Positions 1,422-35,465 of a DNA stretch of 35,693 bases are shown piece after piece. A program made the position numbers and the translations under genes. How positions within the stretch are numbered: position 1 is the first letter of the stretch; each line of letters begins with the position of its first letter. Under the pieces are notes generated by a model. It was not told the DNA's origin, ran no database searches, and saw nothing but the letters and a program-made list of their open reading frames with translations. Source of the DNA: Gallionellaceae bacterium (GTDB lineage Bacteria; Pseudomonadota; Gammaproteobacteria; Burkholderiales; Gallionellaceae); NCBI GenBank assembly GCA_030834965.1, contig JAUQWW010000085.1, forward strand, positions 1 through 35,693. The letters are read 5' to 3'.

Positions 1422-1514
1422 GGTTTTTCTTGACGGTCGTAAGCGAGCGGCGGATATTGTTGACCATTACCGCAATAAACCCAAACAATTCATTAGCGCC
1501 TTGGTATCCGACCA

Positions 1515-1613
1515 TCCCCTCCCCCATGCAGGGGGAGGGCCAGGGAGGGGGTAGAAGCCCCAACTCTTCACTATTCTACCCCCATCCTAACCTTCCCCCT
1601 GCGAGGGGGAAGG
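1515..1613. repeat. REP doublet (REPIN-like) in a divergent intergenic region
   Basis: Two GC-rich palindromes, at about 1515-1538 and 1590-1613, lie in inverted orientation. Each has C-rich and G-rich arms around TGCA or TGCGA. The inner flanks are also inverted copies of each other: GGGAGGGGGTAGAA at about 1542-1555 against TTCTACCCCCATCC at about 1573-1586. The whole block could therefore fold into one long cruciform, which is the architecture of a REPIN. It separates the divergent MFS gene from the acyltransferase fusion gene. An open frame runs through it into the downstream gene, but that frame is not a convincing N-terminus. Confidence 0.75.
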
Positions 1614-1660
1614 AATTGCACCGGCGAGATACGGTTTTCCTGGAGCAAGCGAGGGAGTGC

Positions 1661-4492
1661 ATGGTGAACGCGCGGAACGACACTTCCAGCACGCTGCTGA
1701 CCATCATCCGGCAGCTCGCCGCCGAGTTGCACGCGCGTCCCGAAACAGCCATTGCAGCGACCCTGGACAGCTCACTGGAACGGGATCTGGGCTTCGACAG
1801 CCTCGGGCGGGTGGAACTACTCACGCGCATCGAGCAAACCTTCGGGGTCAGCCTGCCGGAACAGGTATTTGCCACTGCCGAAACGCCGCGCGATTTGCTG
1901 CAGGCGGTTCTGGCCGCCGCGCCTGCCACGGTGCCAACCACGGACGTGCAGAGAATCGAAGCCCCGGTGTGGGTGCAGGCCGTACCGACGGATGCGGTTA
2001 CACTGCCGGAGGTGCTGGATTGGCATGTGCGCGCGCATCCGGAGCGCACGCACATTACGCTGCTGGACTCGGAGGGAAACGAAACCGCATTGTCCTATGC
2101 CGCGCTGCACGACGGCGCACAGGAAGCCGCTGCGGGACTGCTGGAACGCGAAGTGCAGCCCGGCCAGTCCGTGGCGATCATGCTGCCCACCAGCCCCGAA
2201 TATTTCTGCTGCTTCCTCGGCGTGCTGCTGGCAGGTGGAGTCCCCGTTCCCATCTACCCCCCTGCCCGCCCCGCACAGATCGAGGACCATCTGCGACGCC
2301 ATGCAGGAATACTCTCCAACGCGCGCGCCACCATGCTGATTACGGTATCCGAGGCGAAGCCCGTGGCGCGGCTGCTGCGCGCACAGGTGGAATCGCTGCG
2401 CATGATTGTCACGATGGCCGAGCTATCCGGGGTCGGCCGCGCGCCAGGCATCCCGCTCAAGCCAGAGAACATCGCGCTGATCCAGTACACCTCCGGTAGC
2501 ACCGGCAATCCCAAGGGGGTCGTGCTGACCCATGCAAACCTGCTGGCAAACATCCGCGCAATGGGGCAGGCGGTGCAGGCCAGTTCCACGGACGTGTTCG
2601 TGAGCTGGCTGCCGCTGTACCACGACATGGGCCTGATCGGAGCCTGGCTGGGCAGCCTGTACCATGCTTTCCCGCTGGTGGTGATGTCGCCGCTCAGCTT
2701 TCTGGCGCGCCCGGAGCGCTGGCTGTGGGCGATCCACAAGCACCGCGGCACGCTTTCCGCCTCCCCCAACTTCGGCTTTGAGCTGTGCCTGCGCAAGATC
2801 CCGGATGCGGCTCTCGAAGGGCTGGACCTGTCGAGCTGGCGCATGGCCTTCAACGGCGCCGAGCCAGTCAGCCCGGAAACCATCGCCCATTTCGCGCAAC
2901 GCTTCGGCCGCTACGGCTTGCACCCGCAGGCGATCGCGCCGGTATACGGGCTGGCCGAATGTGCGGTGGGGCTGGCGTTCCCGCCGCCCGGACGCGAGCC
3001 GCTGATCGACTGCATCAGGCGCGACAGCTTCATGCGCACCGGCCATGCGGAACCCGCCGGCAGCGATGAGGCGGATGTGTTGCGCATCCCGGCATGCGGA
3101 CACCCGCTTCCCGGCCACGAGATCAGGATCGTGGATGCCACCGGCCACGAACTGGGCGAACGCATGGAAGGGCATCTCGAATTCAAGGGGCCGTCCGCTA
3201 CCAGCGGCTACTTCCGCAACCCGGAGCAGACACGACTGCTGTTTCACGGCGAATGGCTGGACTCCGGCGATTTCGCCTATCTGGCAGAGGGCGACATCTA
3301 CCTGACCGGCCGATCAAAAGACATCATCATTCGCGCCGGGCGCAACATCTACCCCTATGAACTCGAACAAGCCGTGGGCAATATCCCCGGCATCCGCAAA
3401 GGCTGCGTCGCGGTTTTCGGCAGCCCGGACCCCGCGGCCGGCACCGAGCGCCTGGTGGTGCTGGCCGAAACACGCGAGACCGCACCCGCACAACTGGAAC
3501 CTCTGCGCGAACGGATCAACGCGCTGACGCTGGACATACTGGGGACGCCCGCGGACAACATCGTGCTCGCGCCGGTCCACACCGTGCTCAAGACATCGAG
3601 CGGCAAGATCCGGCGCGCGGCCTGCCGTGAATTGTTCGAGAAAGGCGCAGCGCCTGCGCGTGCGGTATGGTGGCAGGTCGCGCGTATCGCATGGGCCGGC
3701 ATATTGCCGCAGTTGCGCCGCGGTGCCCGCGTGGCAGCGGATGTCAGCTATGCCGCATATACCTGGGTGCTGTTCTCTCTGCTCGCGCCTCCGACCTGGC
3801 TGGCTGCCGTTCTGTCGCCCCGCCCCGCCTGGAGCTGGGCGGCAAGCCGCACGAGTGCGCGGCTGTTTGCGCGCCTGACAGGAACACCCATTCTGGTCCG
3901 CGGCCTGGAAAACCTGACACCCGACACACCCTGCGTGCTGGTGACCAACCATGCCAGCTATCTCGATGGTATCGTGCTCGTCGCCGCCCTGCCGGGCAAA
4001 CTCAGCCACGCCGGATACTTCAGTTTCGTGGCCAAGCGCGAACTGGTGGAGAGTTTTATTCCGCGCATTTATCTTGAGCACATCGGTTCGGATTTCGTCG
4101 AGCGGTTCGAATCACAGCGCAGCGTGGAAGACGTGAAACAAGTCGCGCTCTCCCTGCAATCCGGTCGCAGCCCGGTGTTTTTTCCGGAGGGCACATTCAG
4201 CCGCATCCCCGGCCTGATGCCATTCCGCATGGGCGCATTCGTGGTCGCTGCCGAAGCAGGCGCACCTGTCGTACCGGTGGCCCTGCGCGGCACCCGCTCC
4301 ATCCTGCGCGACGGCCACTGGTTTCCGCGCCGCGGCATCATCAGCGTTACGATAGGCAAACCGATTGCACCCGACGAAAAGGGCTGGGCTGCGGCCATAC
4401 ACCTGCGCAACACGGCCCGCGCAGAAATCTTGCGCCGGTGCGGGGAGCCTGATCTTGCGCCGGGAGCGACAGAGGAGCAGGCAGAGGTTTAA
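1661..4492 (+). CDS. trifunctional acyl carrier protein - fatty acyl-AMP ligase - PlsC acyltransferase fusion
   Basis: A 943-residue fusion. Residues 1-85 are an acyl carrier domain with the phosphopantetheine site LGFDSLGRVEL (Ser47). Residues about 110-690 are an adenylate-forming ligase of the fatty acyl-AMP ligase type, with YTSGSTGNPKG at 276-286 and VYGLAE further on. Residues about 740-930 are a PlsC/LPLAT acyltransferase with the NHASYLD motif (Asn763, His764, Asp769) and PEGTFSR (Glu843). The expected chemistry is activation of a free fatty acid, loading onto the fused carrier, and transfer to a lysophospholipid or lysophosphatidate at the membrane. E. coli Aas has related acyltransferase and ligase domains in the opposite order and no carrier domain. 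I place the start at ATG 1661, or GTG three bases on, behind GAGGGAG. The open frame extends upstream to 1430 only through REP sequence. Confidence 0.88.
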   Translation: MVNARNDTSSTLLTIIRQLAAELHARPETAIAATLDSSLERDLGFDSLGRVELLTRIEQTFGVSLPEQVFATAETPRDLLQAVLAAAPATVPTTDVQRIEAPVWVQAVPTDAVTLPEVLDWHVRAHPERTHITLLDSEGNETALSYAALHDGAQEAAAGLLEREVQPGQSVAIMLPTSPEYFCCFLGVLLAGGVPVPIYPPARPAQIEDHLRRHAGILSNARATMLITVSEAKPVARLLRAQVESLRMIVTMAELSGVGRAPGIPLKPENIALIQYTSGSTGNPKGVVLTHANLLANIRAMGQAVQASSTDVFVSWLPLYHDMGLIGAWLGSLYHAFPLVVMSPLSFLARPERWLWAIHKHRGTLSASPNFGFELCLRKIPDAALEGLDLSSWRMAFNGAEPVSPETIAHFAQRFGRYGLHPQAIAPVYGLAECAVGLAFPPPGREPLIDCIRRDSFMRTGHAEPAGSDEADVLRIPACGHPLPGHEIRIVDATGHELGERMEGHLEFKGPSATSGYFRNPEQTRLLFHGEWLDSGDFAYLAEGDIYLTGRSKDIIIRAGRNIYPYELEQAVGNIPGIRKGCVAVFGSPDPAAGTERLVVLAETRETAPAQLEPLRERINALTLDILGTPADNIVLAPVHTVLKTSSGKIRRAACRELFEKGAAPARAVWWQVARIAWAGILPQLRRGARVAADVSYAAYTWVLFSLLAPPTWLAAVLSPRPAWSWAASRTSARLFARLTGTPILVRGLENLTPDTPCVLVTNHASYLDGIVLVAALPGKLSHAGYFSFVAKRELVESFIPRIYLEHIGSDFVERFESQRSVEDVKQVALSLQSGRSPVFFPEGTFSRIPGLMPFRMGAFVVAAEAGAPVVPVALRGTRSILRDGHWFPRRGIISVTIGKPIAPDEKGWAAAIHLRNTARAEILRRCGEPDLAPGATEEQAEV

Positions 4493-33308: not shown

Positions 33309-33416
33309 GTTTGTCATGAGGCCCAAGTGGGTCAGCTCCGTCGCTTGGGTTAAAATAATTACGGTTTTTCCACAATTATTTTCAAACTCACTTTGACTCC
33401 CGCCTCCCGCTCTCCA

Positions 33417-34505
33417 ATGCGTATCACCCACCTCCGCCAACGTCTGCGTGATCTCGGCGCCAAGCCGTGCCACGAGGATCGTCTGCTGCGCGGCTGGAGC
33501 CAGGTCAGCTCGTACGACAGGAAGCACAGTCCCGCAGAGACTTTCTTTCCGCTTGCGCTGCGCAATGAGCTACCCGCCATCGAGGCGGAGTTGAATGGGC
33601 TGGCGCGCCTGCGTAGTGAACATCCCGCCGATCAAGGCATCGCACGGCTGCTGGTGGAGCTGCATGACGGCCAGATGGTGGAGAGCGTGCTGTTGCCGCG
33701 TGGTGGTTTGTGCATATCGACGCAGGTGGGTTGTGCGGTGGGGTGTGTGTTCTGCATGAGTGGCCGCGCCGGCTTGCTGCGCCAGCTCGGCAGCGCCGAG
33801 ATCGTCGCCCAGGTGGTGCTCGCGCGCCGTCGCCGCGCAGTGAGCAAGGTGGTTTTCATGGGCATGGGCGAACCGGCCCACAATCTCGACAACGTGCTCG
33901 AGGCGATTCAGGTGCTGGGCACACAGGGCAACATCGGGCACAAGAATCTGGTGTTGTCCACGGTGGGTGACCTGCGGGTGTTTGAGCGGTTGATGGAGGG
34001 GCTCCCGCTCCCGGGCAAGTCCTCTCCCCAACCCTCTCCCGCAGGTGGGAGAGGGGGCGAACGAAAAAAGCAATCTTCAATTCCTGTGGTCAAACCCGCA
34101 CTCGCCCTTTCGCTGCACAGCACCGATGCTCTACTTCGCGCCAGATTGCTGCCTCGCGCACCACGAATTGCTGTCGAAGAGCTGGTGGAACGCGCCGAGG
34201 TGTATGCGCGCGCCACCGCCTATCCGGTTCAATATCAATGGACGTTGATGGAGGGAGTGAACGACAGCGATACCGAGCTGGAGGGGATGGCCCAGCTCCT
34301 ATCCGGGAAGCACGCGATCATGAATTTCATCCCCTTCAACGCAGTGGACGGACTCGACTATCGCCGCCCCTCGGCGGAACGGATTGCGTATATGGTGGGA
34401 ACGCTTAATCGGCGCGGCATCCTCGCCCGGGTGCGCGATTCGGCAGGGCAGGAGATCGAAGGGGCGTGCGGGCAGTTGCGTGCGCGGGCGGTGAATGCAA
34501 AATAG
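33417..34505 (+). CDS. RlmN/Cfr-like radical SAM RNA methyltransferase with an in-frame REP insertion
   Basis: A 362-residue radical SAM protein of the RlmN/Cfr family. Cys99 in LCISTQVGC corresponds to RlmN Cys118. The iron-sulfur cluster motif is CAVGCVFC (Cys106, Cys110, Cys113). MGMGEP follows. The methyl-carrying cysteine is in EGACGQL (Cys351). Such enzymes methylate adenosine 2503 of 23S rRNA or related sites. The N-terminus differs from canonical RlmN, so it may be a paralogue with another target. About 22 residues (from 201; GKSSPQPSPAGGRGG and on) are encoded by a REP palindrome that keeps the frame and sits before VKPALALSLHSTD. ATG 33417 is preferred to an upstream TTG. Confidence 0.85.
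   Translation: MRITHLRQRLRDLGAKPCHEDRLLRGWSQVSSYDRKHSPAETFFPLALRNELPAIEAELNGLARLRSEHPADQGIARLLVELHDGQMVESVLLPRGGLCISTQVGCAVGCVFCMSGRAGLLRQLGSAEIVAQVVLARRRRAVSKVVFMGMGEPAHNLDNVLEAIQVLGTQGNIGHKNLVLSTVGDLRVFERLMEGLPLPGKSSPQPSPAGGRGGERKKQSSIPVVKPALALSLHSTDALLRARLLPRAPRIAVEELVERAEVYARATAYPVQYQWTLMEGVNDSDTELEGMAQLLSGKHAIMNFIPFNAVDGLDYRRPSAERIAYMVGTLNRRGILARVRDSAGQEIEGACGQLRARAVNAK
34018..34061. repeat. REP palindrome inside a coding sequence
   Basis: CCTCTCCCCAACCCTCTCCC, a short spacer GCAGGT and GGGAGAGGG form a GC-rich stem-loop of the same family as the extragenic copies. It lies fully within the RlmN-like gene and leaves the reading frame open. Confidence 0.75.
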
Positions 34506-35400: not shown

Positions 35401-35465
35401 GGCCTCTCCCCGATGGAGAGGCCATATACACCCCCTCCCCCTCGGGGGGAGGGTTGGGGAGAGGG
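35401..35465. repeat. cluster of two REP-like palindromes
   Basis: GGCCTCTCCC...GGGAGAGGCC-like arms form a first hairpin at 35401-35422 (GGCCTCTCCCCGATGGAGAG and CC). A second, CCCTCCCCCTCGGGGGGAGGG-like, lies at 35433-35453 and is followed by TTGGGGAGAGGG. Same family as the other GC-rich copies. It fills most of the non-coding gap between the DUF3135 gene and the final lipoprotein gene. Confidence 0.75.

Follow-up and report, generated by a model that had tools for sequence, protein, structure and literature searches.

Analysis of a 35,693-nucleotide stretch of a Gallionellaceae genome (the window) revealed a gene for an RlmN-like RNA methyltransferase that carries a dispersed palindromic repeat in frame. 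The same site in this gene is filled by several groups of repeats in related genomes, and some of these inserts are nested. We consider it highly probable that these genes have captured mobile repeats in protein loops that tolerate them. A palindromic repeat of about 62 nt, presumably mobile and with no stop in its reading frame, has entered the RlmN-like gene at a helix-to-strand loop of the barrel. According to this explanation, its translation most likely yields a disordered Pro-, Gly- and Ser-rich loop. The enzyme would remain in use, limiting the survivors to insertions that are in frame and free of stops. The loop would serve as a tolerated ‘safe harbour’. In the family, this loop, a second loop in the same enzyme and single sites in LysA, UvrD and RlmN carry repeats again and again, among them elements within elements. 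The recurrence would reflect structural tolerance more than targeting.

The RlmN-like gene and its repeat

The gene matches PRK14464/NF011034 with 618.7 bits in a profile search, above the cut-off of 422. It scores 209.7 bits against the TIGR00048 RlmN model (cut-off 290) and 116-118 bits against the Cfr models (cut-offs 468-550), and thus reaches neither. Its ATG at 33417 is likely the start; it encodes residue 9, where the family match begins. The closest solved structures are those of RlmN proteins (6fz6, 3rfa). RlmN proper is found separately in the same genome, on C59 (TIGR00048, 457.5 bits, over the cut-off of 290). The earlier note stated that the catalytic cysteines are kept on both sides of the insert, and this holds: the CxxxCxxC motif, Cys107 and Cys359 are all intact. 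The roles of Cys107 and Cys359 are presumably those of their counterparts in E. coli RlmN.

Table 1. Positions of the features in the window
Feature	Position	Strand	Remarks
RlmN-like RNA methyltransferase gene	33393..34505	+	370 codons from TTG; NF011034/PRK14464 match; frame open
Site 1, second hotspot of the gene family (P0001 67-82)	33591..33638	+	normal 48 nt; empty here
Cys107 (LCIS motif)	33711..33713	+	intact
Radical-SAM CxxxCxxC (Cys114, 118, 121)	33732..33755	+	motif intact
ATG junction codon (Met201), 5’ side of site-2 insert	33993..33995	+	comparison with relatives
Site-2 insert, 93 nt / 31 residues (P0001 202-232)	33996..34088	+	most relatives 9 nt / 3 residues
Type-A repeat unit, about 62 nt	34021..34082	+	palindrome plus tail GCGAACGAAAAAAGCAATCTTCAATT; copies in same genome
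Perfect 9-bp inverted repeat	34032..34055	none	arms 34032-34040 / 34047-34055
Cys359 (ACGQL motif)	34467..34469	+	intact
Second copy of palindrome, downstream of RlmN-like gene	35431..35465	-	86% over 36 nt

The site of the insert (site 2) is bounded by FERL, followed by one junction codon, and by VKPALALS. The earlier note expected about 22 residues that are absent from orthologues. Alignment shows that residues are indeed extra relative to most relatives. The size was underestimated, the net gain being 28 residues (31 versus 3). The suggestion that the insert forms a loop is borne out by the AlphaFold model, in which the insert is located between the helix at 186-192 and the strand at 228-232. 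The mean pLDDT from residue 9 is 85.3, and the block value drops to 48 at the insert. The low confidence suggests that the insert is probably a disordered loop. In this fold, helix-to-strand connections are generally on the barrel face opposite to the radical-SAM site.

The palindrome at 34018-34061 has the sequence AGTCCTCTCCCCAACCCTCTCCCGCAGGTGGGAGAGGGGGCGAA. Its stem on its own is only mildly unusual, because such a GC-rich stem (loop 3-8) also arises when the codons of the gene are shuffled, in 67 of 2000 trials. The excess over chance is its repetition in the genome. In the 3.07-Mb genome, 47 matches to 34015-34090 are found (E 0.01 or better; some places counted on both strands), which agrees with the proposal of the earlier note that a genome-wide palindrome has been inserted here with the frame left open. 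REPs are defined by a short palindrome with many copies per genome; here a 9-bp perfect stem is combined with those 47 matches. The GTAG and CGTC tags are absent from both strands of 34018-34061 by direct reading. The single Y1-transposase match found in the genome (G000:C6:20912-21118, PF01797, E 1.2e-7) is partial and over the cut-off; it is a candidate REP-associated transposase.

The tail that follows the palindrome is shared by inserts in several genes. Allowing up to 4 edits, it was found in 16 LysA inserts, 12 UvrD inserts and 11 and 5 inserts at the two methyltransferase sites, and in none of 118 shuffled inserts. The repeat unit is therefore larger than the palindrome. Five other copies in the genome (L196, L197, L201, L203 and L206) have a long common 5’ head on the palindrome, like AACGG.CATGGC...CGCCATGCCCGTT. 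Their 3’ tails are similar to each other and unlike the tail of the methyltransferase copy, which points to a unit of greater length, very roughly 120 bp.

Insertion in genes does not seem rare for this repeat. The earlier note assumed that coding positions are rarely tolerated. This is not supported by a census of 30 copies in the genome, 12 of which are inside conserved genes, with the family match spanning the copy or flanking it on both sides. The RlmN-like gene and 20 others were scanned for families; L200, L202, L203, L205, L206, L207, L208, L209 and L215 were not. Besides the RlmN-like gene, copies are found in AmgK, LysA, UvrD, GlnE, HpnE, MetG and YlqF, in FadE (two match stretches, of which the first is shown), in a FadB-like protein and in a GlcD/Fe-S fusion. 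The linker of a dipeptide ABC transporter contains one as well. Three copies, in AddB-like, RNase II-like and ComEC genes, have a family match on one side alone. Reading frames run across the copies at L008 and L214, with no family match. At L006, L196, L197 and L201, which were scanned, the copies are located near a gene end, outside the matched part. Together, the copies of the repeat suggest that it is mobile.

Recurrence in the family and in other genes

The insertion is not an isolated event: 35 of 97 Gallionellaceae genomes carry an insert at site 2, and 62 do not (family by inference; among the matches listed; genomes with both site-2 anchors present, the window’s genome counted). The gene family has a second hotspot, site 1, which is filled in 30 of 95 family genomes. 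In all, 51 family genomes have at least one insert and 14 have both sites filled; these counts are also among the matches listed. The 148 distinct sequences, our own gene included, comprise 35 with a site-2 insert and 113 without. Two loci, L161 and L170, lost their 5’ side to a contig end. Counts on the N part and the junction are based on 33 inserted sequences. The 35 include L035, whose 66-nt insert has Leu as junction codon and belongs to none of the repeat groups.

The inserts are confined to one part of the gene tree. In the tree of the 148 sequences, every insert is inside one clade of 101 rows, together with Gallionellaceae. The remaining 47 rows have no insert, save for 9 extra nt in L116, L117 and L120. 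Across the order, 37 of 150 genomes were matched at E 1e-60. Of these, 33 are from other families, and each gave one unbroken match with no insert. An assembly artefact is unlikely, because one insert bearer, G049, is a 3.0-Mb genome in a single contig.

Several groups of repeats fill the same site. We assigned groups by peptide motifs and BLAST, the letters being our own. The 35 site-2 inserts include 17 of type A, 6 of type C, 5 of type B, 4 of type E, 2 of type W (WIPAFAGMT) and 1 of no group. BLAST connects members inside each group. Matches between A and E arise solely via the composite L036, and 6 matches between A and C arise via L017 and L033. Judging from these matches, B and W are clearly separate groups, while a C-rich ancestry may be common to A and C. 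Types C and B are dispersed in the genomes that bear them. Type C has 22, 24 and 64 matches in G000, G104 and G045. Type B has 8 matches in G121, 3 in G041 and none in the window’s own genome. The earlier note counted against an insertion any close orthologue that has the same number of residues with unrelated DNA. L022 has 31 residues encoded by different DNA, yet this DNA is another dispersed repeat, and for this reason L022 does not refute the insertion. A type-C copy is also present in the window itself, at 1517-1618, where it occupies a 5’ portion of the frame 1430-4492, which is open. It precedes the fatty acyl-AMP ligase-like match of that frame.

Some inserts contain a second element. 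A nested short repeat is found in 19 of 118 inserts. Three genes are involved, and most of the nested copies occupy a single point within the type-A palindrome. The nested repeat (ACTAGCCATTCGACTAAG...CAAGTCGCTGGTTAT) is present in L174, L238, L268, L305 and 15 more inserts, in frame every time.

Similar patterns are observed in other enzymes. LysA has extra codons at one site in 25 of 50 loci, apparently from one element read in two frames, and UvrD has them at one site in 28 of 50 loci. All 100 of these loci are in frame and have no stop between the anchors. The loci are the best matches to insert-bearing queries among the matches listed (insert in 15 of 30 for LysA and 28 of 30 for UvrD) plus 40 further hand-picked ones, so that the figures describe chosen loci and are not rates. 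The inserts in UvrD L275 and L277 have no likeness to the type-A repeat. In RlmN, 13 of 14 loci have 21-180 extra in-frame nt at one loop, with sequences other than type A; these loci were chosen from 136 matching genomes for a split or long match, and the count is likewise not a rate. In eight genomes (L278-L285), one loop of RlmN proper is occupied by a different insert (like DTLPRSGRLREEAQAALPAPDGSAAP), again in frame.

Reading frame, RNA structure and allele history

All 35 site-2 inserts and all 30 site-1 inserts have lengths that are multiples of 3 and contain no in-frame stop. The other five frames of the same DNA contain 40-61 stops per frame at site 2 and 38-88 at site 1. Out-of-frame gaps were found in none of 187 loci (185 measured at site 2 and 181 at site 1; same-gene repeats included). 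The flanks of inserted alleles are under purifying selection, with a median dN/dS of 0.126 and a maximum of 0.242 (313 pairs, pS under 0.55). The set without inserts (median 0.220) includes outgroups and is not directly comparable with the inserted class. Each of the 33 inserted genes with the N part present has retained its cysteine motifs. Because the frame is kept, stops are absent, the flanks are constrained and the cysteines are intact, the cell most likely uses the gene and translates its insert. The enzyme is presumably unharmed.

These observations bear on two other explanations. If the gene were decaying and the insert a sign of relaxed selection, the flanking dN/dS of about 0.13, the retained cysteines and gaps that are never out of frame would not be expected. 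The genome does contain a second, insert-free PRK14464 gene (G000:C95:28789-29793, L010 and L192, 650.7 bits), which could make the inserted copy redundant. However, this copy clusters with Pseudomonas carbonaria and P. indica (tree support 96) and looks like a separate, horizontal acquisition. Inserts are also found in MetG and LysA, which are genes generally needed for growth. We therefore regard decay as very improbable. The second explanation is that the insert is removed at the RNA level or bypassed by the ribosome, as introns and bypassing elements are. It would need neither an open frame nor freedom from stops, yet all examined inserts have both. No RNA family scores over its threshold and no direct point speaks in its favor, making removal or bypass hardly credible.

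The palindrome could instead be kept as an mRNA hairpin that slows or attenuates translation of the methyltransferase. Perfect inverted repeats of at least 8 bp are indeed enriched. At site 2 they are present in 23 of 35 inserts, compared with a mean of 3.1 after shuffling, and at site 1 in 21 of 30, compared with 3.6. Such enrichment is expected without a role, since palindromes are common among dispersed repeats. The local RNA is predicted to fold with -61.3 kcal/mol, better than its shuffles (z -2.22), of which 6 in 200 reach this level. However, the most stable local structure joins the left arm to the upstream coding sequence and not to the right arm. Pairing between the two gene flanks is slightly stronger in inserted alleles than in uninserted ones (-16.67 versus -15.45 kcal/mol), which speaks for this explanation; against it, the flanks of one allele pair no more stably than permuted combinations do. 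The repeat groups, the insert lengths (66-258 nt) and the stems all vary, and nearly two-thirds of the family genomes, the 62 of 97 among the matches listed, lack a site-2 insert altogether. A scan against RNA families gave one match below threshold (19.7 versus 42 bits). We consider a hairpin function quite improbable. The clean palindrome is not universal among the inserts, which counts against tolerated capture of mobile repeats, the explanation that we prefer, as does the lack of type-B matches in the window’s own genome.

The 5’ border of site 2 revealed an additional feature. Of 33 inserted sequences, 32 have ATG at the junction, compared with 0 of 113 uninserted ones. Of the latter, 93 have a Pro codon at this position. 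The codons next to it are also biased in inserted alleles. Phe is encoded by TTT in 69% at the border versus 10% elsewhere in the same genes, Arg by CGG/AGG/AGA in 81% versus 24%, and Leu by TTG/TTA in 72% versus 27%. No comparable shared block is found on the 3’ side of the site-2 inserts. The shared 5’ border is not predicted by tolerance alone and counts against our preferred explanation.

Two candidate causes of the 5’ block were rejected. It does not appear to be part of another genome repeat, as TTTGAGCGGTTGATGGAG has 4 matches with up to 3 mismatches, the site included, and its reversed control has 3. Pairing between the flanks does not account for the codon block either, with own pairs at -16.67 and permuted pairs at -16.53 (sd 0.42); we do not count the slightly stronger pairing of inserted flanks in its favor.

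A single origin of all site-2 inserted alleles was rejected as well (p-AU 1.1e-71; DNA tree, quick tree). Inserted alleles are scattered almost randomly on the DNA gene tree, with 25 changes against a shuffled mean of 27.7 and 71 of 500 shuffles as low. The starred branches of this tree force at least 10 changes at site 2. In the protein tree, branches with support of at least 95 force no more than 6 changes at site 2; for site 1 the number is 7. Descent with many losses is a poor fit, because uninserted alleles resemble the outgroup state. Possible routes are conversion at the locus and repeated arrivals that keep the border fixed.

The rejection of a single clade, set against an ATG and a biased 5’ codon block shared by 32 of 33, argues for site-directed arrival, by a transposase or by local gene conversion, with an existing repeat or border as the landing pad. 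The position of the nested element, mostly at one type-A point in three genes, is consistent with it, and REPs are described as targets of insertion sequences (PMC1525189, in the part cited here). On the other hand, the one partial Y1-transposase match has no evident connection with the repeat, common ends are not visible among the repeat groups, the shared block is missing on the 3’ side, and the supported branches of the protein tree force 6 changes only. Directed arrival is compatible with tolerated capture, and we think it rather unlikely. A bolder proposal would be that these Gallionellaceae genes have self-renewing landing sites. The border and hairpin of a resident repeat would attract repeats of other groups to the very same bases, and alleles once occupied would move or re-form across species independently of the gene tree, in a homing-like manner, with TGATGGA as the footprint of the machinery. 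If true, conserved enzymes bear fast-changing loops encoded by mobile DNA. We offer it as a speculation with a small chance of being correct. The motif TGATGGA is common to the site-2 border and the 5’ end of several nested-repeat copies, perhaps by chance.

Comparison with known intragenic repeats

Tolerated capture of repeats has precedents. In Rickettsia, 19 reading frames carry palindromic elements, according to the cited part of a review (PMC2229807). It also describes a guanylate kinase that bears such an element and is active, with altered substrate affinity (PMC2229807). In both systems palindromic repeats are located in frame inside conserved proteins, a likeness of description. Here, the hosts are Betaproteobacteria and several groups fill one loop in many species, sometimes nested.

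Intragenic REPs with GTAG/CGTC tags have been reported in open reading frames for UvrD/REP helicase, recBCD and tRNA synthetases (PMC3733652, 2013, as far as cited here). The same source describes REP clusters that encode 43-82 residues in Thauera and R. conorii, and different REPs at about one site in recB of X. campestris and X. oryzae (PMC3733652). Unlike these REPs, the palindrome at 34018-34061 has no such tag, and the recurrence here extends to dozens of genomes, affecting two loops of one gene and no fewer than three additional genes. Enterobacterial RU/ERIC elements, likewise small and mobile, form in-frame fusions with conserved genes (PMC2759123). Their units are longer (103-168 bp), and a shared hotspot is not among the features reported in the cited part of that source (PMC2759123). 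As with insertion sequences that target REPs (PMC1525189, cited in part), a palindrome here provides a fixed-point landing site for another element. In our case the second element is a short repeat and the reading frame stays open.

Our literature search found no paper on Gallionella repetitive palindromic elements and, among the titles listed, none on this case. Protein-coding palindromes in Rickettsia and scattered intragenic REPs were known before. The present case adds one bacterial family in which several conserved enzymes are affected, the same loop is refilled by different groups, and insertions are nested. These natural replicates can indicate which protein loops accept new peptide sequence. 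They also bear on how selfish DNA seeds protein novelty and on whether repeats make target sites for each other. The intragenic repeats described here are a new example, unusually rich, of something already known, a richer relative of the protein-coding palindromes of Rickettsia.
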